This document shows positions 4,163 through 19,087 of a stretch of 23,703 bases of DNA, piece after piece (positions within the stretch are counted from its first letter, which is position 1; the number at the start of each line of letters is the position of its first letter). Made by a program: the position numbers and the translations under genes. The DNA is from a virus, in IMG/VR virus record IMGVR_UViG_3300025426_000121, positions 1-23,703 of that record, one strand, 5' to 3'. The notes beneath the pieces were generated by a model. The model saw nothing but the letters and a program-made list of their open reading frames with translations, made no database searches and was not told the DNA's origin.

Positions 4163-4780
4163 TTCAACCTGTTTATATAAATCATCAATAGAACCATTGT
4201 TCTCTAAGTAATAATCGTAAGTCAATCCAACACTACTGTATTCACTTGCATGAATTTTAAGTTTTTCTAGTTTTGCTTTACTTAATGCCCACAATGAGTT
4301 ACCATTGGGTCCTTTATTATATTGAATTGCTGCATCATACCATTCTGGTTCAGGACCTCGCATTACTCTAATTGTAATGCCACCTGCATTTTTAATTGCT
4401 TTTACTTCATTGGCAAATCTACAGTCAGATATCACTACATTGTCAGTACTTTTTAGTAGCTTGTGTTCCAATGCGGCAATCCATATATCATCATGGAAGC
4501 CTTTGCGACATACTTCTGTTCCCCAGTACTGTAGAATCCATCGAGGAGTTAGATTAGGCATATCAAGTCTTTCTGCCCACCAAGGATCTACTTGTTCTCT
4601 CCACTCACGACTAGATTTTGTCGTACCCTCTAGCATTTCACGATCCCAACCAAAGACATGTGCTACTGCATCTTTAAGACTATTAGCAAAGCTTTCTTTT
4701 TTAAATCCATGAAATGTAGTAAGATAATTGGCAATTGTGTCTTTGCCGCTACCGATGAAACCACACACACCGACAATCAT
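4145..4780 (-). CDS. 1: deoxynucleoside monophosphate kinase (T4 gp1-like)
   Basis: Predicted to phosphorylate dNMPs to dNDPs with ATP, feeding phage DNA synthesis in the host cytoplasm. The P-loop is at the N-terminus (GFIGSGKDT, residues 7-15; K13 would bind the ATP phosphates). Further typical parts are residues 56-66 (TKSSREWREQV), LQYWGTEVCR near residue 83 and the strand VVISDCRFANEV near residue 115, with its DxRF signature. The length of 211 residues is near that of T4 gp1 (241). The start codon overlaps the stop of the upstream HNH gene in an ATGA, which implies translational coupling. Confidence 0.93.
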   Translation of the reverse strand: MIVGVCGFIGSGKDTIANYLTTFHGFKKESFANSLKDAVAHVFGWDREMLEGTTKSSREWREQVDPWWAERLDMPNLTPRWILQYWGTEVCRKGFHDDIWIAALEHKLLKSTDNVVISDCRFANEVKAIKNAGGITIRVMRGPEPEWYDAAIQYNKGPNGNSLWALSKAKLEKLKIHASEYSSVGLTYDYYLENNGSIDDLYKQVESIINL

Positions 4781-5622
4781 ATATTTTCCTTTTTATTTTT
4801 ACATTTATCCCCATGCCATCTAGCATAGTTCATGCTGTCAATTTCTTTGCTACAATGATAACATTTTATTTTAGGGGATACAAGTTTTTCGGTTCTTTTT
4901 CTTTGTCGTTGTTCATCTGTGTGTTTCTTACCAAAGAAACCATTTTTCTCACCAATATTAGCAACTTTCTTTTTAAGTTCGGCTGCTCGTTCTTCACCAT
5001 ACAATTCTTCAAATGTTTTGTTTTTATTGTAGGGTTCTCTTCCTTTTCTATTTTTAGATGCACTTTCTTTCCATGCATTGGACTTTGGTTTACTCGCATT
5101 AGCAGACATCTTTTGTTTAGTTTGTTCAGTGTGTTGTTTATTATAGAATGGATTATTTGGCCCTGTGTTAGCAATTGATTTCTCAATTCGCATCAATCTT
5201 GCTTTTTCTTTGCCATATAATTCTTCGTATGTTTTTCCTAGTAATCTATTTCGCAATTCTAGTTTGATTTGTTCATATTGTCTGGAAGTTAATGTTATAG
5301 TGCGTTGTTGATTATTACTACTAATACAGGTCATGTGGAGTGCGTTGAACATTTTAGTTTTAAATTTACCAGTAGTCATTCTAACTAAAAGTTTATGACA
5401 TAATAAATGTTCTCTGGGTGTTAGCCAAACTAAATTAGTAATATCATTCGCATCTCCTAAAATAGTGCCAGGAGCACCTTTTCTTTTGCGATTCAAGTAA
5501 AATGATTCAGGTATGATATGATGCTGTTCGTTTGGCTCTATATGACCTCTAGTAATTGCGTTATTTACAATAGTGTAGTACCACTTAGTGTATTTGTTCT
5601 GTAGGAAAATTTCTTGACTCAT
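4777..5622 (-). CDS. HNH homing-type endonuclease with NUMOD3-like repeats
   Basis: A free-standing HNH endonuclease of the mobile kind common in T4-like phages. The HNH core is at residues 34-76: a histidine pair (HHIIPESF), then N63 (NLVWLTPREH) and H72/H76. A tandem repeat of about 43 residues follows (129-171 and 201-242), each copy with EELYG and a NUMOD3-like segment (NPFYNKQHT, NGFFGKKHT) for DNA contact. The C-terminus carries a zinc finger (C254, C257, H270, C274). No ribosome binding site stands directly before the ATG; the only strong one (AGGAG at 5679-5683) precedes a 14-codon ORF ending five bases upstream. It overlaps the kinase start by four bases. Confidence 0.88.
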   Translation of the reverse strand: MSQEIFLQNKYTKWYYTIVNNAITRGHIEPNEQHHIIPESFYLNRKRKGAPGTILGDANDITNLVWLTPREHLLCHKLLVRMTTGKFKTKMFNALHMTCISSNNQQRTITLTSRQYEQIKLELRNRLLGKTYEELYGKEKARLMRIEKSIANTGPNNPFYNKQHTEQTKQKMSANASKPKSNAWKESASKNRKGREPYNKNKTFEELYGEERAAELKKKVANIGEKNGFFGKKHTDEQRQRKRTEKLVSPKIKCYHCSKEIDSMNYARWHGDKCKNKKENI

Positions 5623-5626
5623 ACAT

Positions 5627-5671
5627 TTACTTATGCGAACAGGATAAGATAAATGTGCTACTATTAATCAT
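5627..5671 (-). CDS. possible 14-codon leader peptide before the HNH gene
   Basis: Starts with ATG at 5671 behind AGGAG (5679-5683) and ends with TAA at 5627, five bases before the HNH start. Its ribosome binding site lies in the 3' arm of the hairpin at 5679-5709. It could couple or restrain translation of the endonuclease. The length allows chance occurrence. Confidence 0.3.
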   Translation of the reverse strand: MINSSTFILSCSHK

Positions 5672-5673
5672 GT

Positions 5674-5709
5674 AAAAACTCCTATCAGACACTTAGTATA
5701 TGACAGGAG
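5674..5709 (-). terminator. hairpin terminator after the 5733-6138 gene
   Basis: On the minus strand a nine-pair stem (CTCCTGTCA at 5709-5701, TGATAGGAG at 5687-5679, one G-U pair) is followed directly by TTTTT. The stem is less GC-rich than usual. The 3' arm also contains the AGGAG that would serve the 14-codon ORF, so the element may instead or also mask that site. Confidence 0.6.
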
Positions 5710-5732
5710 CATGAAAAAAGAAAGCGTTTATG

Positions 5733-6138
5733 TTATTTCATTAATTTTGACAGATTGGGATCTCGCATAATGAATTGTTCTGCTGTTTTTATTGCGCGTT
5801 GATCTAAATTATCTGATGTAAACAATTCTGCGGCATCATTCTTAGACAAAGGAACTAATTCAATTTTTTCTACTGGATTTGAAAAATAACAATTATCAGG
5901 TATGCCTTGATGTAATCCATCAACGTCTAGCCAAGTTTGATTATCAAATGATGACACTACACATAAATGACAAAAATTCGTATTCAGTTTCTTCCGTAAA
6001 GTCATCATAATACGATCCTGCCCAAGCTCCAAAAGGTAACCCTGTCAAATTGTGCAGAGCAAATGCCATAGTATCACAATTTCCCGTACGATAGGTAGAT
6101 TTTGGATCCCTATCTTCTAGTAACTCTCTGATCTTCAT
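5733..6138 (-). CDS. Cys-His-Asp peptidase-like protein, interrupted by a one-base frameshift
   Basis: Two overlapping frames (5944-6138 and 5733-6032) are halves of one protein. Removing one base from the A-run at 5972-5976 (T-run on the coding strand) joins them into 134 residues. The joined protein has a cysteine at the start of a helix (GNCDTMAFALHNLTG, C21), a histidine in a strand (EFCHLCVV, H57) and an aspartate pair (WLDVDG, D71/D73). This order resembles papain/NlpC or transglutaminase folds; the activity is inference. The frame breaks just before H57, so the unshifted product would lack His and Asp. The gene starts one base after gp13 ends and precedes a terminator, so it belongs to the gp13 late unit. 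Possible causes are sequencing error, a true mutation or ribosomal/polymerase slippage. Confidence 0.65.
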
Positions 6139-6139
6139 G

Positions 6140-6901
6140 TTAGCCTTGAATCCACGTTAAGGGAGCGGAGTAATCAACATAACGTTTGAGGTCTTCTAGT
6201 AAATCTTTCTGTTGGGCTAGACCTTCTGCTTTTAATGCAGTACCGTTTAAGCTTGTGCCGCCACCGGGACCAACAATTGATCCAAATTTTTCACGTGCTT
6301 CACCTAACGTTAGTTTTAATGTAGCTAACGTGAAATCACCTATCCAAACGCCGGCACCTGGATCTTGTAACAATTCTGCTTCAGGTCTTTGAGTGTCCGC
6401 CCATATCAAAATTTGTTCTCCATCACCTTTAATAGTTCTTACTAAGCGAATTTCTTTAGTCACTGGATTAAATGTGTAAACAACATATCCACCAAACATA
6501 CGTGCAGCTAATTCAATATAACCTGCATAAAAATCATATGTTGCTAAACCACCTGCATAATTATAATTTAATAGATACGTGTTAAGAATAGCACTACTGA
6601 ATGGATCGAATGAACTTGAACTTGGACCTGTTTCTAGACCAATTGTTCTACGAAATACTTGTCGTACATTGATAAACTCGCTGGGAAGTGTGTACGTATC
6701 AACATAAGATTGTAGTGTTAATAATGTATAAGATTCTACAGTGGCGTTTTGTGCACGTTGGCGGTATATTTTTAGTGCGTAATTGTATGCGGCTTCAAAG
6801 TGAGGAGGATCCAATTCTAGGTCAATAATACCCTCACCTAAACGATAGCGTAAGCCTTGAAATAATTGTTCTTTAAGTTCGTCTAATTTTACAACTGCCA
6901 T
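6140..6901 (-). CDS. 13: neck protein (gp13-like)
   Basis: In T4 gp13 joins gp14 in the neck that closes the packaged head and receives the tail. The family pattern is clear at the C-terminus: after a VWIGDFTLATLKLTLG segment come EAREKFGS, GPGGGTSLNG and LEDLKRYVD, matching the usual 'WGeNLkKF ... PGGvtLnG ... LeeEl' order. The N-terminus (LKEQLFQGLRYRLG, then ELDPPHFEAAYNYAL, residues 9-43) also fits. At 253 residues it is shorter than T4 gp13 (309). Its ribosome binding site (CTGGAG) is the 3' arm of a nine-pair hairpin that contains its late promoter. It lies on the opposite strand from gp14 and gp15, with three probably early genes between. Confidence 0.82.
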   Translation of the reverse strand: MAVVKLDELKEQLFQGLRYRLGEGIIDLELDPPHFEAAYNYALKIYRQRAQNATVESYTLLTLQSYVDTYTLPSEFINVRQVFRRTIGLETGPSSSSFDPFSSAILNTYLLNYNYAGGLATYDFYAGYIELAARMFGGYVVYTFNPVTKEIRLVRTIKGDGEQILIWADTQRPEAELLQDPGAGVWIGDFTLATLKLTLGEAREKFGSIVGPGGGTSLNGTALKAEGLAQQKDLLEDLKRYVDYSAPLTWIQG

Positions 6902-6907
6902 GTGATT

Positions 6908-6932
6908 CTCCAGATATTGTATTTATCTGGAG
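6908..6932 (-). promoter_or_regulatory. late promoter inside an RBS-masking hairpin (gp13)
   Basis: On the minus strand the arms CTCCAGATA (6932-6924) and TATCTGGAG (6916-6908) pair perfectly over nine bases with a seven-base loop. The late box GATAAATA (6927-6920) spans the 5' arm and loop. The gp13 ribosome binding site is in the 3' arm. A transcript reading through from 8710 would fold and hide it; one starting near 6914 lacks the 5' arm and leaves it free. Confidence 0.75.
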
Positions 6933-6944
6933 AATACTCAAGTA

Positions 6945-7355
6945 TCAAAGATCACCGTCTTGGCGATTTTCACTATAATAAGGATCAAACGAACCGCCGG
7001 GATAGCGTGATTCTAACTTCTTCACGTTTTCAGCAATGACTTCGTTAGGGTCTAGATCAAGTGCCCTGCATGCATTAACCCAGTACCACATGATATCACC
7101 TAACTCACGTTTCATGTGAAAGATATTTTCATCAGTTAGGGGTTTTCCTTGAAAGAAAATCTTTTTAGGAATCTCAATAAACTCACCTGCTTCGGCTGCC
7201 ATACCTAGACATGCAGTCAACAATAGACTAGGATTGATATTAGGATCACCGTTGCGCAACTCATTAATTCTAGGTGCTAGATAATCATAATTGTTACTTT
7301 CCCTTGAGGTAACTGCCTCTACAAACTTACTATATTTTTCTAAATCAATATTCAT
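6945..7355 (-). CDS. MazG-like nucleotide pyrophosphohydrolase
   Basis: All-alpha NTP pyrophosphohydrolase fold, predicted to hydrolyse nucleoside triphosphates (or alarmones) to monophosphates and pyrophosphate. The metal-binding ExxE ... ExxD signature is present: E55/E58 in AAEAGEFIE and E84/D87 in RELGDIMWYW, on two helices. The full length of 136 residues is normal for phage members. The start overlaps the stop of the upstream 60-codon gene in an ATGA, so the two are probably translated together. It is the last gene of the unit driven by the sigma70 promoter at 8717-8745. In aquatic phages MazG is an early metabolic gene thought to adjust nucleotide or ppGpp pools; that role is family knowledge, not shown here. 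Confidence 0.88.
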   Translation of the reverse strand: MNIDLEKYSKFVEAVTSRESNNYDYLAPRINELRNGDPNINPSLLLTACLGMAAEAGEFIEIPKKIFFQGKPLTDENIFHMKRELGDIMWYWVNACRALDLDPNEVIAENVKKLESRYPGGSFDPYYSENRQDGDL

Positions 7356-7534
7356 ATCATTTCCTTAAACATTTGTTTTCTTCCTCTTTCACCTATAGTG
7401 TCATCAAAAATTTCACGTGTTCTTTGTAACATTGCACAGGCTAACATCAATAGTTCATTTTCATCATCGGTTAGTTGAATACAATTATCTATTGGAACCA
7501 TCAGCTCATGCATTCGTTTTTCAATGTCAGTCAT
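7352..7534 (-). CDS. small conserved-type protein of unknown function
   Basis: Sixty residues, mostly helical and acidic in the first two thirds (MTDIEKRMHELMVPID, then DDENELLMLACAML) with a basic end. No motif is recognised. It is accepted as real because both borders are tight: its ATG overlaps the stop of the 384-codon gene by one base (TAATG) and its stop overlaps the MazG start (ATGA). This is a standard phage operon arrangement. Confidence 0.7.
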   Translation of the reverse strand: MTDIEKRMHELMVPIDNCIQLTDDENELLMLACAMLQRTREIFDDTIGERGRKQMFKEMI

Positions 7535-8688
7535 TAGAATGCTTTCAATATAATTAGATTTTCATTGAATCTACCTGTCGGTACTGTCGGGGTAGCTTTA
7601 ATATCTTTGAAAAACTTACGAGCCGCAGGCTTACTTCCCATTACCTCTTTAAGTTGTTCACCGGGTTTTCTAAGTGTTTTGATTTCACTTGTAGCAGTAT
7701 CAAAACCTAGAATTGTGTTACCTTTAACTGTAAAAGTCTTAGAATAATCATCAGCAATATAGTGATGCAATTTACGTTTTGCAGTATCATAAACCCATGC
7801 CTCACTTGCACCGTGTAACTTAGTTGGATGTACACTTGTCAAATCAAGCTTTGTAGTTACATCTTTGAATTCTTTCAAATACTTGAGTTTACTTACAATC
7901 TTTTCAACAGGTATTGCTTTCTTTTTACGAGGAGCTTTGCTTGCTTTCTTAATACTAATATAACTGTTCAAGTCACCCAATACTTGTTCAATGTACTTAA
8001 GAATGTTACGCAACTGAATCTTACCTAAATTACCATAAGCCTCTTTAAGTTCTTTGTCATCAGTCTCATTAAGTGTTTCAAACTCAATTTGTTTTTTCTT
8101 CCATACATCAACAATCAAAGGAATGTGTTGAGGTGTAACATTTAATTTCGCAACAATATCTACTGTTTTCGTAGATGTTTTACCTGTAGTAAAAAATTCA
8201 TCAAAAGCACCTTCTAATTCACCTGCGGCATCACGAGCCTTTTCACGCAAATAGTCTTGAATTGTAGGTTTGTTAATATCTTTTTCTTTTTCAACAACTT
8301 CGGGCTTGTGTACAAGTTTACTCAATCTAGAAATTTCATTTTCTAATGTCAGATTTTCATACTCAGATAATTCTAATCCGCGCATATTCATACGTGCCAA
8401 CCAACACAATGTCATTAGCATTTCATTTTCATGTACTTTACGAATGTATTTGGCTTCAACTTCACGGTTATGATGTTCTAAATAAAGACATAATAACTCT
8501 TTAGCATCTTTCTTACCATAAAAACGATTGTACCATGTAAAACTTCTAGTTAATGCTAAAGTTCTACCTTCTGCGTCAGGTTGTAGTGCGAAAAAAGGTT
8601 CCTCACCCATGTACTTAGTATCAGCATCTCTAGGATCTAATGCTTTGACCAAATGATCGTCTGTATTTTTGGGTTTTCTTGTCGCCAT
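7534..8688 (-). CDS. conserved-type protein of unknown function, 384 residues
   Basis: Not recognised. It is hydrophilic, lysine-rich and probably mostly helical in its first 270 residues, with no signal peptide or membrane segment. A basic linker (KKASKAPRKKK, near residue 243) is followed by a beta-rich part with WVYDTAKRKLHHYIADDYSKTF and TILGFDTATS. The last residues, GRFNENLIILKAF, may form a buried tail. It is the first gene of the unit behind the perfect sigma70 promoter and has a good TAGGAG site seven bases from ATG, so it is probably made early and abundantly. A cytoplasmic role in takeover or replication is plausible but inferred from position only. Confidence 0.8.
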   Translation of the reverse strand: MATRKPKNTDDHLVKALDPRDADTKYMGEEPFFALQPDAEGRTLALTRSFTWYNRFYGKKDAKELLCLYLEHHNREVEAKYIRKVHENEMLMTLCWLARMNMRGLELSEYENLTLENEISRLSKLVHKPEVVEKEKDINKPTIQDYLREKARDAAGELEGAFDEFFTTGKTSTKTVDIVAKLNVTPQHIPLIVDVWKKKQIEFETLNETDDKELKEAYGNLGKIQLRNILKYIEQVLGDLNSYISIKKASKAPRKKKAIPVEKIVSKLKYLKEFKDVTTKLDLTSVHPTKLHGASEAWVYDTAKRKLHHYIADDYSKTFTVKGNTILGFDTATSEIKTLRKPGEQLKEVMGSKPAARKFFKDIKATPTVPTGRFNENLIILKAF

Positions 8689-8716
8689 ATCTACTCCTAT
8701 TTAACGATAATGTGTA

Positions 8717-8745
8717 ATTATAACACAATCTTTATTTAATGTCAA
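8717..8745 (-). promoter_or_regulatory. perfect-consensus sigma70 early promoter
   Basis: On the minus strand TTGACA (8745-8740) and TATAAT (8722-8717) are separated by exactly 17 bases. Both hexamers match the bacterial housekeeping consensus in every position. Transcription should start near 8710 and run through the 384-codon gene, the 60-codon gene and mazG. No other promoter in the window is this strong. Confidence 0.9.
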
Positions 8746-8777
8746 AATTTTGGATATCTCATAGTTCAAAATTCCTT

Positions 8778-8785
8778 GATAAATA
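8778..8785 (+). promoter_or_regulatory. late promoter box for the gp14-like gene
   Basis: GATAAATA followed by CTACA, close to the extended T4 late element. It lies 21 bases before the ATG at 8807, back to back with the early promoter at 8717-8745, so this 118-base gap divides early leftward from late rightward transcription. Confidence 0.75.
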
Positions 8786-8806
8786 CTACATAAATTGGAT
8801 TAAATA

Positions 8807-10477
8807 ATGCCAAAACTCTCACTATATAGATCAGAAAAAAGTAACGACTACCGATTCTTTGATAGAACAATTGCGGAAATGTTGGAAGTAGGTGCTACGG
8901 ATTTATACATTCATAAATATGTAGGCATAGCTGATAGTGGCCCAACTGCTAGCTTGTCTATACCACAACGATCTAGTTTAGATCCTACTAATATACAAGA
9001 CTTATTATTTCTAGAAAATCGTGATCGCCAATATGATGATAATATCTATCGTATACGTGGTCACTATAATGTACAAAATCTAGACTTTGATTTGAGTCAA
9101 TTTGGATTATTTTTAAACAACGATATCATCTTCATAACAATACATTATAACACAATGATTGAATTGATCGGGCGTAAGTTAATGGTTGGTGATGTGCTTG
9201 AATTACCTCACCTAACAGATTATCACCCGTTGAATGAAACTATTCCGACTAGCCTACGTAGATATTATCAAGTTACTGATGGTAACTTTGCTAGTGAGGG
9301 TTTTAGTCAAACTTGGTACCCACATCTATGGCGTATCAAATGTGAACCATTAGTAGATAGTCAGGAGTTTAGTAACATTCTTAAAACACCAACAAGCACA
9401 GATAATTATTTGGGAGACTGGAGCAAGACTGCTACATATGTACCAGGCTATGTTGTTAGTTATGGTAACACAAATTATGTTGCACAACAAAATGTACCAG
9501 TGGGGACACCTTGTACAATTCTTGATCCAGCAACAGGTCAATATGTAGTGAATACACCATATTGGGCGCTAGATACTGCTGACAGTCTCAAAGATATTAT
9601 TGGTCGCTACAATCAAAATATTCAAGTTAATGATGCAATGATATCAGAAGCCGCTAGAATTGTACCTAAATTGGGTTACGATAGAAGTCAATTGTATTTG
9701 GCACCCACTGATACTGCAGGCAAACCTGCACCCCCTGCTAATTTGACTGTTGTAAAGGGCGCGCCTGTACCAACAGGTACTGTTGTAACATTAGGTCCAA
9801 GTCCTTTTATACGAATTGGTCCTGCGGCACTGGTCGGAATTCAAGATTTACCTATAGGTTCACGTGAATTATTAAATGAATTAGTTAGAGTGAGTTTATC
9901 TATTGTTCAACTTGCGCCTGAAAGAACTGATACTGGTTCGGGTCAAGTAGAAGGTGATTTTGTTATTTCAGCGCATGCGCTTTCTTCTATCACTGCACCG
10001 TATGGTACAAGTGACAATACATACTCAGATGCAGGGCAAGATCCTAGTTTACCTTCTTTTAATCAGGCGTTAATTGTTGATACAAACATAATGGACTTTA
10101 GAGCGGACGAAGACCCTAGATTTACATTCATTGTTAGAACATCTCCTAGAGGATATGGTTATACGGATGGTTATTTAGTAGGTGATGGTACTGCACCTAA
10201 TGGTTTACCCTTCAAGTCTGGTATTGCATTCCCTTCTAATCCGGCCACAGGTGATTACTTCTTACGATTGGATTACTTACCGCAAGTGATGTTCCGTTGG
10301 GATGGTTCATTATGGGTCAAGATAAGCGTCAATAACAGAGTTTCAGGTGGACTAAATCAAAATCAAACTCAATTGGGTTCATTCATTAATAATAGCAATG
10401 TCACAACTCTTACAAATGGTACTACGATACCAGAAGTACAATCACTTTCAAGCATACTTAAGATTAATGTAGATTAA
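8807..10477 (+). CDS. 14: neck protein (gp14-like) with carbohydrate-binding-like insert
   Basis: Probable gp14 homologue, partner of gp13 in the neck. The N-terminal 190 residues fit the family: an early helix (FFDRTIAEMLEVGATDLYIH, residues 17-36) like the 'iaEdLIiEsi..yG.dvyYlPR' start, a GDVLELP segment near 129, and YYQVTDGN ... YPHLWRIKCEPLVDSQEF near 153-188 like the gp14 'FEI.fVE ... Y.L.cElf.YS.EeF' region. At 556 residues it is about twice T4 gp14 (256). Residues 203-256 (GDWSKTATYVPGYVVSYG, then NYVAQQ and PYWAL) resemble a small CBM5/12 chitin-binding module. It is followed by gp15 on the same strand, as in T4. The ribosome binding site is poor (GGAT). Confidence 0.65.
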   Translation: MPKLSLYRSEKSNDYRFFDRTIAEMLEVGATDLYIHKYVGIADSGPTASLSIPQRSSLDPTNIQDLLFLENRDRQYDDNIYRIRGHYNVQNLDFDLSQFGLFLNNDIIFITIHYNTMIELIGRKLMVGDVLELPHLTDYHPLNETIPTSLRRYYQVTDGNFASEGFSQTWYPHLWRIKCEPLVDSQEFSNILKTPTSTDNYLGDWSKTATYVPGYVVSYGNTNYVAQQNVPVGTPCTILDPATGQYVVNTPYWALDTADSLKDIIGRYNQNIQVNDAMISEAARIVPKLGYDRSQLYLAPTDTAGKPAPPANLTVVKGAPVPTGTVVTLGPSPFIRIGPAALVGIQDLPIGSRELLNELVRVSLSIVQLAPERTDTGSGQVEGDFVISAHALSSITAPYGTSDNTYSDAGQDPSLPSFNQALIVDTNIMDFRADEDPRFTFIVRTSPRGYGYTDGYLVGDGTAPNGLPFKSGIAFPSNPATGDYFLRLDYLPQVMFRWDGSLWVKISVNNRVSGGLNQNQTQLGSFINNSNVTTLTNGTTIPEVQSLSSILKINVD

Positions 10478-12054: not shown

Positions 12055-12471
12055 ATGAAGAATAATTCGGGTGGCGTATTCTTTTACGCCAATGACACAC
12101 AAAGATTTTTATTTTTACTACGCAATGATTCTAAGAACATTGGTAACTGGGGCATTCCAGGTGGAAAAATAGATGAAGGTGAAACATTGTTTGAAGGTGT
12201 TAAACGTGAGTGTATAGAAGAAATTGCATTCTTCCCTGAGCAAGCCAAACTCATTCCAATTCAAAAATTTGTCAACAATCAATTCACGTATCATACATTC
12301 TTTTGTAAGATAGAAAATGAATTCATGCCTGCATTAAACAATGAACACGTAGGGTATTGTTGGGTAGATAGCAAACACTATCCAAAACCATTGCATCCCG
12401 GACTATTCAATACAGTAAACTTTGATGTTGTACAAACTAAATTACAAAACCTCATAAAAAAAGCGCCCTAG
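12055..12471 (+). CDS. Nudix hydrolase
   Basis: Hydrolyses a nucleoside diphosphate linked to another moiety; the substrate cannot be told from sequence. The Nudix box GX5EX7REUXEEXGU is present at residues 37-59, with G37, E43, R51, E52, E55 and E56 in place and alanine where the final glycine is usual. The 138 residues cover one Nudix fold only. Just before the box, NWGIPGGKI is typical of the family. Possible roles are clearing oxidised or damaged nucleotides or acting on mRNA caps or cofactors, known from other phage Nudix proteins such as T4 NudE. The stop codon lies inside the terminator hairpin. No Shine-Dalgarno sequence precedes the start. Confidence 0.92.
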   Translation: MKNNSGGVFFYANDTQRFLFLLRNDSKNIGNWGIPGGKIDEGETLFEGVKRECIEEIAFFPEQAKLIPIQKFVNNQFTYHTFFCKIENEFMPALNNEHVGYCWVDSKHYPKPLHPGLFNTVNFDVVQTKLQNLIKKAP

Positions 12472-12482
12472 GGCGCTTTTTT
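12455..12482. terminator. bidirectional terminator between convergent genes
   Basis: A perfect palindrome AGCGCCCTAGGGCGCT (12462-12477) flanked by A-run and T-run, so it has a U-tract in both directions. It ends the Nudix gene on the plus strand (its TAG is the loop centre) and the structural gene at 12498 on the minus strand. Confidence 0.95.
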
Positions 12483-14385: not shown

Positions 14386-16269
14386 CTATTTATTAGACGC
14401 TTTTAATTCGTTAACTTGATCGCTCAGAGTTTTAACTGCCTCGATTAGTAAAGGAACTAATAATTCATATCTTACTGCTAAGTAAGGATCTTCTTTGTTT
14501 TCAGGTACACCAGGCGGAGTAAACTGATATGTTGCTTGTGGTAGTACTTTTAGTACATCGCCGGCTAATACACCAACCAATTTATCATTTTTACCTTTAT
14601 AGTTATAATAATAACCTGCAAGTTCTAATACTTTATCTAATGCATTGTCAATAGGTACAAGATTTTCTTTTAATCTAATATCAGATGAATTATAAAAAGC
14701 AGTAATGTCACCTACAGCAGTAATACTACTACCGGCAGTAACAGCTCCACCTATACCAATAGCACCGCTTACTGTTAAAGTAGACAATGTACCAACTGAA
14801 GTAATGTTAGCTTGCACATTACCGCTTACAGTAACTGCTAATGTTGAACTTGATGCGCTATCAGCACTTGATGCATGTGTAGCACTTGCAACTGGTCCCG
14901 ATACGGCAGATCCAGAAATACTAGATACTGTGGCTGGTGGTAAGTTTGTTAAATGACTTCCATCACCTACAAAATAACCACTGGTTGTAATATTGCCACT
15001 GACATTTAATGAAGTTAGTGTACCAACTGATGTAATAGCAGGTTGCCCAGGAGTATAAACTGTGCCTGCAATCAATGCATTAGCAACTTGCCCAGTAACA
15101 TTAGCACCTGCTATTGAAAGAACTGAGTTTGCTACATTTGCATTTGCTACAAAGCCGGTAACATTAGCACCAGCGATGTAACTTAAGTGACTACCATTGC
15201 CTATGATATAATTACCAGTAACATTTCCTGTAGTATTCAATGCAGTTAATGTACCAAGACTAGTGACATTGGGTTGAGCGGCAGTAGTTAATACGCCTGT
15301 TAAATTGCCCGTTGAGATGCCATTAGTAACTGATAATACTTTAGATGCCGAATCAAATGTAAGTGACGAATCACCACCAAACACACCTAGCTTGTTAAAT
15401 TGAATTTGTGAGTTTAAACCACCGGGTGTTCCACCAGAACTAGTACTAGGCGGTTGTATCCAAGCAAGGTTACCATAACCATCAGTAGATAAAACATAAT
15501 TTTGTAATCCGCCGCTAATGTGTAAATTACTAACAGACCCTAAATTAACATTGGCAGTATTAACAAAATTAATACTACCTGCAGAATTACTAACTGTTAA
15601 CCCAACTAGTGACCCCACACTAGTAATATTTGGCTGTGCACTAGAGTACACAGTAGCAGCCAATGCTGAATTACCGACTTGCCCCACAACATTACTTGCT
15701 GGTATTGCAAATAAATTTGCACCTGAACCACTGAAGTAATTAGCAGTTACTAAATTACCTAAATTAGCATTTGCACCAGTAATGTTACCAGTGCTTGTTA
15801 ATTCAGCAGTAGATATATTACCACCTACATATAAGTTTTGTGTTGTATAATCATATGTGAATCCTGGTGATCCACCAAAATATCCTGCGTTTGCAAATTG
15901 AACTTGAGTATTGCTACCAGCAACTGATCCGCCACCTCCACCACCACCGGTCTGTGCAGTCCAACTTAAATTACCAGCACCATCAGTTTGTAGGACATAT
16001 CCATTATATCCACCTTCAATTTTTATATTACCAATAGAAGTGTCAAAAACACCTGTTAATTGACTAGCATTAATTTTACAGTTAGCACTATTTGTGTATA
16101 TTTGAGTAACAGAAGGAGAAATCCCTTGTGGAGGATCTATTAATGGATCATTACCAATGTATGCTAATTTAGTATCAGTAGCAAAACCGATTTCCCCAAT
16201 GTCAAGTTGTGGTAAATCAATGTTTGCACCTGTTCTGTGCTGAATTTTTGAAATCTGGACTATCGCCAT
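14386..16269 (-). CDS. tail fibre/appendage protein with S74 chaperone domain
   Basis: Residues 529-627 form an intramolecular chaperone of the peptidase S74 type, which assists trimer folding and cuts itself off. It begins SDIRLKEN with the Ser529-Lys534 pair of the catalytic dyad, and ends YLAVRYELLVPLLIEAVKTL. The usual IAQEVE is replaced by LAGDVLKVLP. The first 50 residues resemble virion-binding ends of other phage receptor-type proteins (DIGEIGFATDTKLAYIGN). The middle has a duplicated unit (86-165 and 253-325: YVLxTDGxGNLxW, then QxQF, FGG) and four copies of QxxITSVGTLxxLxVSG (near 211, 331, 408 and 486). A glycine run lies at 108-114. Late promoter at 16294-16301; ribosome binding site AAAGG. 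It is the best candidate here for host contact. Confidence 0.88.
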   Translation of the reverse strand: MAIVQISKIQHRTGANIDLPQLDIGEIGFATDTKLAYIGNDPLIDPPQGISPSVTQIYTNSANCKINASQLTGVFDTSIGNIKIEGGYNGYVLQTDGAGNLSWTAQTGGGGGGGSVAGSNTQVQFANAGYFGGSPGFTYDYTTQNLYVGGNISTAELTSTGNITGANANLGNLVTANYFSGSGANLFAIPASNVVGQVGNSALAATVYSSAQPNITSVGSLVGLTVSNSAGSINFVNTANVNLGSVSNLHISGGLQNYVLSTDGYGNLAWIQPPSTSSGGTPGGLNSQIQFNKLGVFGGDSSLTFDSASKVLSVTNGISTGNLTGVLTTAAQPNVTSLGTLTALNTTGNVTGNYIIGNGSHLSYIAGANVTGFVANANVANSVLSIAGANVTGQVANALIAGTVYTPGQPAITSVGTLTSLNVSGNITTSGYFVGDGSHLTNLPPATVSSISGSAVSGPVASATHASSADSASSSTLAVTVSGNVQANITSVGTLSTLTVSGAIGIGGAVTAGSSITAVGDITAFYNSSDIRLKENLVPIDNALDKVLELAGYYYNYKGKNDKLVGVLAGDVLKVLPQATYQFTPPGVPENKEDPYLAVRYELLVPLLIEAVKTLSDQVNELKASNK

Positions 16270-16301
16270 AGTATAACCTTTAGTAGATTATACTATTTAT
16301 C
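16270..16301 (-). promoter_or_regulatory. late promoter of the S74 fibre gene with overlapping dyad
   Basis: The late box GATAAATA is at 16301-16294. A seven-pair dyad starts at its last base: AGTATAA (16294-16288) and TTATACT (16276-16270), with the ribosome binding site AAAGG in the loop and the 3' arm touching ATG. A late transcript starting near 16288 would lack the 5' arm. Confidence 0.6.
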
Positions 16302-19056: not shown

Positions 19057-19087
19057 AAAAAAAACCCGAGAAATTCTCGGGTTTTTT
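19057..19087. terminator. strong bidirectional terminator
   Basis: A six-pair GC-rich stem CCCGAG (19065-19070) and CTCGGG (19076-19081), extended by A-T pairs, with A-run and T-run on the two sides. It ends the 117-residue gene on the minus strand and insulates it from the promoter at 19045. Confidence 0.93.

Follow-up and report, generated by a model that had tools for sequence, protein, structure and literature searches.

How a gene for a virion protein can sit directly behind genes of early type is the question raised by one locus in the stretch of viral DNA analysed here, the 23,703 nucleotides of IMG/VR virus record IMGVR_UViG_3300025426_000121 (hereafter, the window). The gene, on the minus strand at 6140 to 6901, codes for a gp13-like neck or head-tail adaptor protein of 253 amino acids, assigned by its match to PHROG 211 (head-tail adaptor Ad2, E 3e-20) and by tblastn to annotated neck proteins. 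Three co-directional reading frames precede it: a 384-amino-acid member of PHROG 11903, a family of unknown function (7534 to 8688, from the open reading frame list and the PHROG match), a 60-amino-acid frame without a family match in PHROGs or Pfam (7352 to 7534), and a MazG-like pyrophosphohydrolase gene that closes the unit (6945 to 7355; PHROG 229, E 4e-46; PF03819 above cutoff). An earlier sequence-only reading had described these genes (8688 to 6945) as an early unit with a perfect sigma70 promoter, lying directly upstream of gp13 with no terminator between. Both parts of that description hold, as a sigma70-type promoter, TTGACA-17-TATAAT, at 8717 to 8745 of the minus strand matches the consensus at 12 of 12 positions, with TG before the second hexamer, and no terminator-like site was found across 5000 to 10000, where shuffled sequences average 2.5. 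The consensus promoter, the co-directional genes and the absence of a terminator-like site in this region would fit early read-through into gp13. No close DNA relative of 5000 to 10000 was found among phage records.

Two other features of the window touch on its gene arrangement. A homing-endonuclease-like gene (4777 to 5622, minus strand) separates gp13 from a dNMP kinase gene and is found at the same relative place in RaK2. Strong inverted repeats at 12457 to 12482 and 19059 to 19087, with 11 and 13 pairs and flanking A and T runs, resemble ordinary intrinsic terminators, the former at a convergent gene junction.

The minus-strand gap between the MazG-like gene (7355 to 6945) and gp13 (6901 to 6140) contains a perfect inverted repeat of 12 pairs. 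Its 5' arm, ATTCTCCAGATA, occupies 6924 to 6935, the seven-nucleotide loop AATACAA 6917 to 6923, and the 3' arm, TATCTGGAGAAT, 6905 to 6916, as located by repeat search and RNA folding. The late promoter box GATAAATA (6920 to 6927, TAAATA being 6925 to 6920 with GA directly before it) spans the 5' arm and the loop, and the 3' arm carries the Shine-Dalgarno sequence GGAG (6908 to 6911), 6 nt ahead of the gp13 ATG at 6901. The coordinates thus agree with the earlier placing of the late box in the 5' arm and loop and of the ribosome binding site in the 3' arm. The nine pairs then described, CTCCAGATA/TATCTGGAG (6932 to 6908), are present, but their number was wrong, as they form the inner part of the 12-pair repeat. 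The predicted RNA fold has an energy of -16.7 kcal/mol (z -3.75), matched by none of 200 dinucleotide shuffles, and perfect stems of at least 12 pairs with a loop of 3 to 20 nt were absent from 20 first-order Markov shuffles of the whole window. Late RNA presumably starts at 6914, a position that we take from the spacing in T4, and an RNA beginning at this assumed start has no stable fold (-0.3 kcal/mol). Two traits of a T4-type leader, an inverted repeat that pairs the Shine-Dalgarno sequence and a T4-type late promoter directly before the ribosome binding site, are both found, the first as 12 pairs with GGAG in the 3' arm and covariation among relatives, the second on sequence, with GATAAATA where T4 has TATAAATA.

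A hairpin at the end of an early unit could also be mainly a terminator or attenuator of that unit, with the late promoter nested in it and the hiding of the ribosome binding site secondary. An intrinsic terminator has a GC-rich stem followed by a T run, but the window hairpin is followed by CACATGG, without a T run; with no terminator-like site in 5000 to 10000 either, the window hairpin was rejected as a terminator. Some relatives give this explanation more room, and we return to it with them.

In the explanation that we favour, early RNA from the sigma70 promoter would run through the MazG gene into gp13, carrying both hairpin arms, and would fold into the 12-pair hairpin that hides the Shine-Dalgarno sequence, so that gp13 would stay untranslated early. 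Late in infection, a polymerase with a gp55-type sigma factor would start at GATAAATA inside the hairpin; the late RNA, from about 6914, would lack the 5' arm, remain unfolded and be translated. We consider it about 85% probable, judging from the sequence, that the gp13 leader is an early-silent, late-active leader of the T4 type, in which we infer the early read-through, the position of the late start and the block of ribosomes by the hairpin.

A known leader of this kind for comparison is that of T4 gene e, where, according to PMC3014915, one or more late promoters lie in the stretch encoding the 5' strand of a helix covering the Shine-Dalgarno sequence; early read-through RNA is silent, late RNA is translated, and transcript ends have been mapped. 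Gene e is a lysis gene with two late boxes and mapped ends, while gp13 of the window is a neck gene with one GATAAATA, known from its sequence only. PMC3014915 and PMC2988022 describe soc, 49, I-TevI, I-TevII, I-TevIII, segB and mobE of Aeh1 as late genes inside early or middle units that are kept silent by a hairpin which late RNA is unable to form; unlike the gene behind the window leader, none of soc, 49 and the homing endonucleases is a neck gene. T4 gene 13 itself has the same product class as gp13 of the window (head-tail adaptor Ad2), but in T4 it stands after wac among consecutive virion genes and shows no such leader, there being no TAAATA within 70 nt upstream of it.

The comparison with T4 can be expressed as the predicted energy needed to open the 18-nt initiation region, which for gp13 of the window amounts to 14.8 kcal/mol when the RNA is read-through and 1.4 kcal/mol when it is late, a difference of 13.4 kcal/mol. 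The T4 leaders computed as positive controls, which were only soc, 49, e and I-TevII (the last standing in for I-TevI), gave differences of 7.2, 12.9, 15.2 and 12.7 kcal/mol, respectively. The gp13 value lies inside this range of 7.2 to 15.2 (13.4 against 15.2 for e), so in its predicted energetics the leader does resemble the T4 genes with which it had been likened. Other tested T4 genes with a nearby box ranged from 0.0 to 10.3, and the highest (26, 51, 53 and 4) have TATTTA and TAAATA close together; gene 26 is named among T4 genes with a sequestered ribosome binding site in PMC2988022. Ten other gene starts of the window were tested as well, and of the eight with a box, seven have differences of at most 2.7 kcal/mol and the eighth, that of the tail-fibre gene (16269), has 6.3 kcal/mol. 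In this last leader (16268 to 16299, minus strand), GATAAATA runs into a nine-pair hairpin before a tail-fibre-like gene (16269 to 14386), with the Shine-Dalgarno sequence in the loop and part of the ATG in the 3' arm. A search with the tail-fibre leader (16299 to 16268) found 16 loci, two of them 100% copies, and the three best of the other 14 stop before the gene start; no independent tail-fibre homologue with its leader was seen among the 16 loci, of which these three best non-copies were inspected.

The arrangement before gp13 is widely conserved. Among the best 80 of at least 588 relatives, TAAATA lies within 110 nt before the matched gp13 stretch in all 80. Leaving out L002 as the same virus (100% identity) and L019 and L046 for too little upstream sequence, and adding the window, gives a set of 78 leaders, in all of which GATAAATA is identical. 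The predicted fold reaches -10 kcal/mol or lower in 61 of them, lies between -10 and -5 in 14 and is above -5 in three (L064, L074 and L076), and at least two Shine-Dalgarno bases pair with bases upstream of the expected start in 77 of the 78 predicted folds, the exception being L037, which forms a different hairpin with the Shine-Dalgarno sequence in its loop. The sequence-only reading had held that homologues keeping the promoter and losing the complementary arm would speak against it. This is clear in one leader of the 78, L064, which keeps the box and the co-directional upstream gene, has a very weak predicted fold with the hairpin lost, and counts against the T4-type reading; L074 and L076 fold weakly, and the repeat is kept in most.

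We analyzed covariation in 29 distinct leaders (46 loci) that share an 18-nt spacing from box to ATG. The arms change together in these leaders, so the compensatory changes in related phages that had been proposed as a check were found. In the alignment, 84.2% of cells are paired, against 74.1% with the 3' letters shuffled and only 25 to 49% when one arm is slid by 1 to 3 positions; the slid control, which is clear, weighs more than the shuffles, because related sequences can beat such shuffles without any structure. Cells changed on both sides number 37 (17.6 in shuffles), 25 of them at three pairs, the ones outside GGAG with double-sided changes, and the covariation score is 0.334 (0.184 in shuffles); for these two measures and for the share of paired cells, none of 500 shuffles was as high. 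The excess is confined to cells and score, as the pairs with double-sided change (6, against 5.6 in shuffles) and the further pair types (18) are not above shuffles in the same 29 leaders. Pairing is also kept in other leaders with differing loop lengths.

These patterns bear on three other explanations of the repeat. The perfect symmetry around the promoter box, and GATA/TATC inner ends that are largely conserved, would suit a DNA site of two-fold symmetry from which a dimeric protein controls the late promoter. The outer arms, however, differ among relatives yet stay complementary, spacing and loop length vary, and the RaK2-like arms around the box are quite different; changing but complementary arms at variable spacing are what is expected for pairing and not for one binding site, and we regard a DNA site as highly improbable. 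Since GGAG is under a constraint of its own, pairing does not account for all of the conservation in the 3' arm, which could suggest that the fold is incidental and that the promoter and the Shine-Dalgarno sequence are complementary by chance. With compensating changes at pairs outside GGAG, no shuffle as stable, and two further gene families of the same loci whose late-box leaders fold weakly, a chance origin is barely credible. A long stem between two reading frames could furthermore be an RNase III substrate or protect a 3' end, making the hairpin a processing or stability element that parts gp13 mRNA from early mRNA; we find this very unlikely, as it leaves unexplained a late box inside the repeat and a Shine-Dalgarno sequence in the 3' arm in nearly all leaders of the window clade.

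The T4-type reading of the gp13 leader is set off by a comparison with other late-box genes. We collected 136 late-box leaders from the window and the loci of the best 80 of at least 588 relatives (L002 omitted), of which 80 precede gp13, 24 and 21 belong to two other families and 11 to seven small clusters. The median fold is -14.7 kcal/mol at the 80 gp13 sites versus -3.1 and -2.7 kcal/mol at the 24 and 21 sites of the two families. In G001, a relative's 367-kb contig with a gp13 83% identical to that of the window, the gp13 leader is the most stable of 38 late-box leaders, and in GAP32 it is the second most stable of 29. Five of the 38 and five of the 29, gp13 included, reach -10 kcal/mol; the device may thus serve a few further genes, but the idea that the repeat accompanies all late promoters in these phages was rejected. 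One of the other stable leaders of G001 (-16.6 kcal/mol, second to gp13) precedes a methyltransferase-family gene of PHROG 8156 (start 148758; L104 8707 to 9621). In GAP32 (NC_019401), further stable late-box hairpin leaders at 278826, 309762 and 235913 precede an HNH endonuclease gene, a tail assembly chaperone gene and a gene directly ahead of that for a virion protein, the third lying behind IF3- and ClpS-like genes; the HNH endonuclease leader is reminiscent of the T4 homing endonucleases.

G001 has GATAAATA at start-upstream positions in 15 of 40 occurrences, versus 0.57 expected, and codes for a late sigma factor of the gp55 family (PHROG 12791, E 1e-68), while T4 gp55 as a query matched four of nine records (E 9e-7 to 0.003). 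For CBB and GAP32, PMC5259590 describes an ATAAATA late motif before structural genes and a gp55-like factor. It also reports that gp33 and gp45, which take part in late transcription in T4, went undetected in CBB, a related phage, and this counts against the T4-type reading; its main text nowhere uses the word hairpin.

The early side of the arrangement also recurs. Scanning for TTGAC[AT]-16/18-TATAAT, we found near-consensus sigma70 promoters upstream on the gp13 strand in 38 of the 51 loci that have at least 2.5 kb of upstream sequence, against 0/51 on the opposite strand, 1/51 in reversed sequence and 0/35 in downstream regions. Early-type promoters ahead of gp13 are therefore a feature of relatives too, although the 51 loci make up six protein clusters and the 38 all fall in three of these, so they are not 38 independent events. 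The commonest direct neighbour, in 50 of 94 co-directional loci, is a single BLAST family whose representative matches MazG.

To the first set of relatives we added the best 80 of at least 596 relatives in each of two later scans and annotated jumbo phages, reaching 247 gp13 loci, window included, of which 169 were usable, in 51 clusters at 85% identity. Sixty-six loci were dropped for having no TAAATA in the searched stretch ahead of the chosen start (many of these belong to the divergent group, and their starts may have been picked wrongly), three for short upstream sequence and nine for lack of a usable neighbour call, the orientation of the neighbour being called mechanically from open reading frames of at least 60 amino acids. 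Where the upstream gene is co-directional, 17 of 26 clusters have a hairpin of -10 kcal/mol or lower; where it is divergent, 2 of 25 do (Fisher p 3e-5). An opening cost of at least 12 kcal/mol is seen in 15/26 versus 2/25, and a z of -2.5 or lower together with -5 kcal/mol or lower in 17/26 versus 4/25. Hairpins located further upstream, or with the Shine-Dalgarno sequence in the loop, can escape an RNAfold prediction that begins 22 nt before the box (by eye, L254 and L205 are examples), and an opening-energy measure was therefore added. By this measure the contexts are less distinct, with differences of at least 5 kcal/mol in 17/26 co-directional and 11/25 divergent clusters and medians of 10.9 and 4.6 kcal/mol (Mann-Whitney p 0.0013). 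The smaller gap is due in part to opposed late boxes, which are complementary to each other: TATTTA lies within 56 nt before TAAATA in 22 of the 25 divergent clusters and in 1 of the 26 co-directional ones. L083, L088 and many other loci have a gene divergent from gp13 and a short intergenic stretch with opposed late boxes, apparently a two-way late promoter.

When phylogeny is taken into account, the association of strong hairpins with co-directional upstream genes is only suggestive. There are four independent contrasts on starred, well-supported branches; by the first two measures, about 1.5 agree on average, almost none oppose and the rest are uninformative, and by the third (z plus energy) 0.5 agree on average, so that with only four contrasts, about 1.5 of them informative, the link is not significant. 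Nine of the 26 co-directional clusters fall short of -10 kcal/mol. At three loci among them, L196, L257 and L275, the gene next to gp13 on its upstream side is of the PHROG 11903 BLAST family (L196 was covered by the PHROGs profile scan, the others were placed by BLAST family) and has TTGACA ahead of it, so that there is an early promoter without a strong hairpin; the leaders of L196, L275 and L139 have little structure and are contrary cases. L134 is the opposite exception, with a hairpin despite a divergent neighbour call.

Hairpins of unrelated sequence are found in the window clade, the RaK2-like clade, L188/L213 and L134/L135. In the RaK2-like jumbo phages RaK2, PBECO4, GAP32, Munch, Hallingskeid and XaC1, gp13 also lies behind co-directional genes, and, as in the window, TAAATA is in a hairpin with the Shine-Dalgarno sequence in the 3' arm; their hairpins differ from that of the window in arm sequence and by a longer loop, and four of the six phages have a T run after the Shine-Dalgarno sequence. 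Hallingskeid has a T run before the stem. Two annotated gp13 starts look wrong, that of RaK2 (L085 2941), whose ATG overlaps the 3' arm of the hairpin, and that of PBECO4 (L086 2965), which lies five codons past an ATG with a better-placed Shine-Dalgarno sequence.

It is here that the terminator explanation finds its evidence. TTTT between the Shine-Dalgarno sequence and the ATG is present in 10 of the 77 strong hairpin leaders (-10 kcal/mol or lower, all loci, L002 omitted), including those of PBECO4, GAP32, Munch and XaC1, and in these relatives termination could therefore add to the hiding of the ribosome binding site or replace it. The other 67 have no T run, and the Shine-Dalgarno sequence is in the paired arm whether or not there is one, so we consider it very unlikely that the hairpin is mainly a terminator or attenuator. 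A wider scenario, which we put forward tentatively and hold to be possible but doubtful, is that the nesting of a late promoter in a self-complementary leader acts as a portable adaptor that was acquired several times. When gp13 came to lie behind early genes, a hairpin of unrelated sequence would have formed anew around the late box, as in the window clade, the RaK2 clade, L188/L213 and L134/L135, whereas beside a divergent gene it would usually not be kept, and opposed boxes are found instead; in part of the RaK2-like branch, the stem would double as an early terminator with the promoter in its loop.

Returning to the T4-type leader, its support consists of the anatomy of the locus, its conservation with compensating changes, the contrast with other late-box genes of the same loci, the early-type promoter upstream and the predicted folding difference. 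The proposal that gp13 is timed like T4 e, soc, 49 and I-TevI is thus supported at the level of sequence, where its predictions as to covariation, conservation, upstream promoters and energetics held in most cases. A search of open-licence PubMed Central by title and abstract start found no literature on such a leader for gp13 or in jumbo phages. The mechanism is known from T4, and what would be new, with no report found, is its probable occurrence at the virion neck gene gp13. Across a large family of bacterial viruses, a hairpin containing the start signal of a virion-assembly gene appears to keep that gene silent early and active late. A regulatory trick of a small number of T4 genes would thereby extend to a gene for a virion neck protein, both in a widespread phage group that is largely uncultured and in named, growable jumbo phages. 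It would explain how a structural gene can lie behind early genes without premature production, and it raises two questions that can be put to the test in phages infecting laboratory E. coli, namely what harm early gp13 would do and how frequently leaders of this kind arise. The signature, a late box inside a hairpin that pairs the ribosome binding site, can guide a search for further late genes concealed within early operons.
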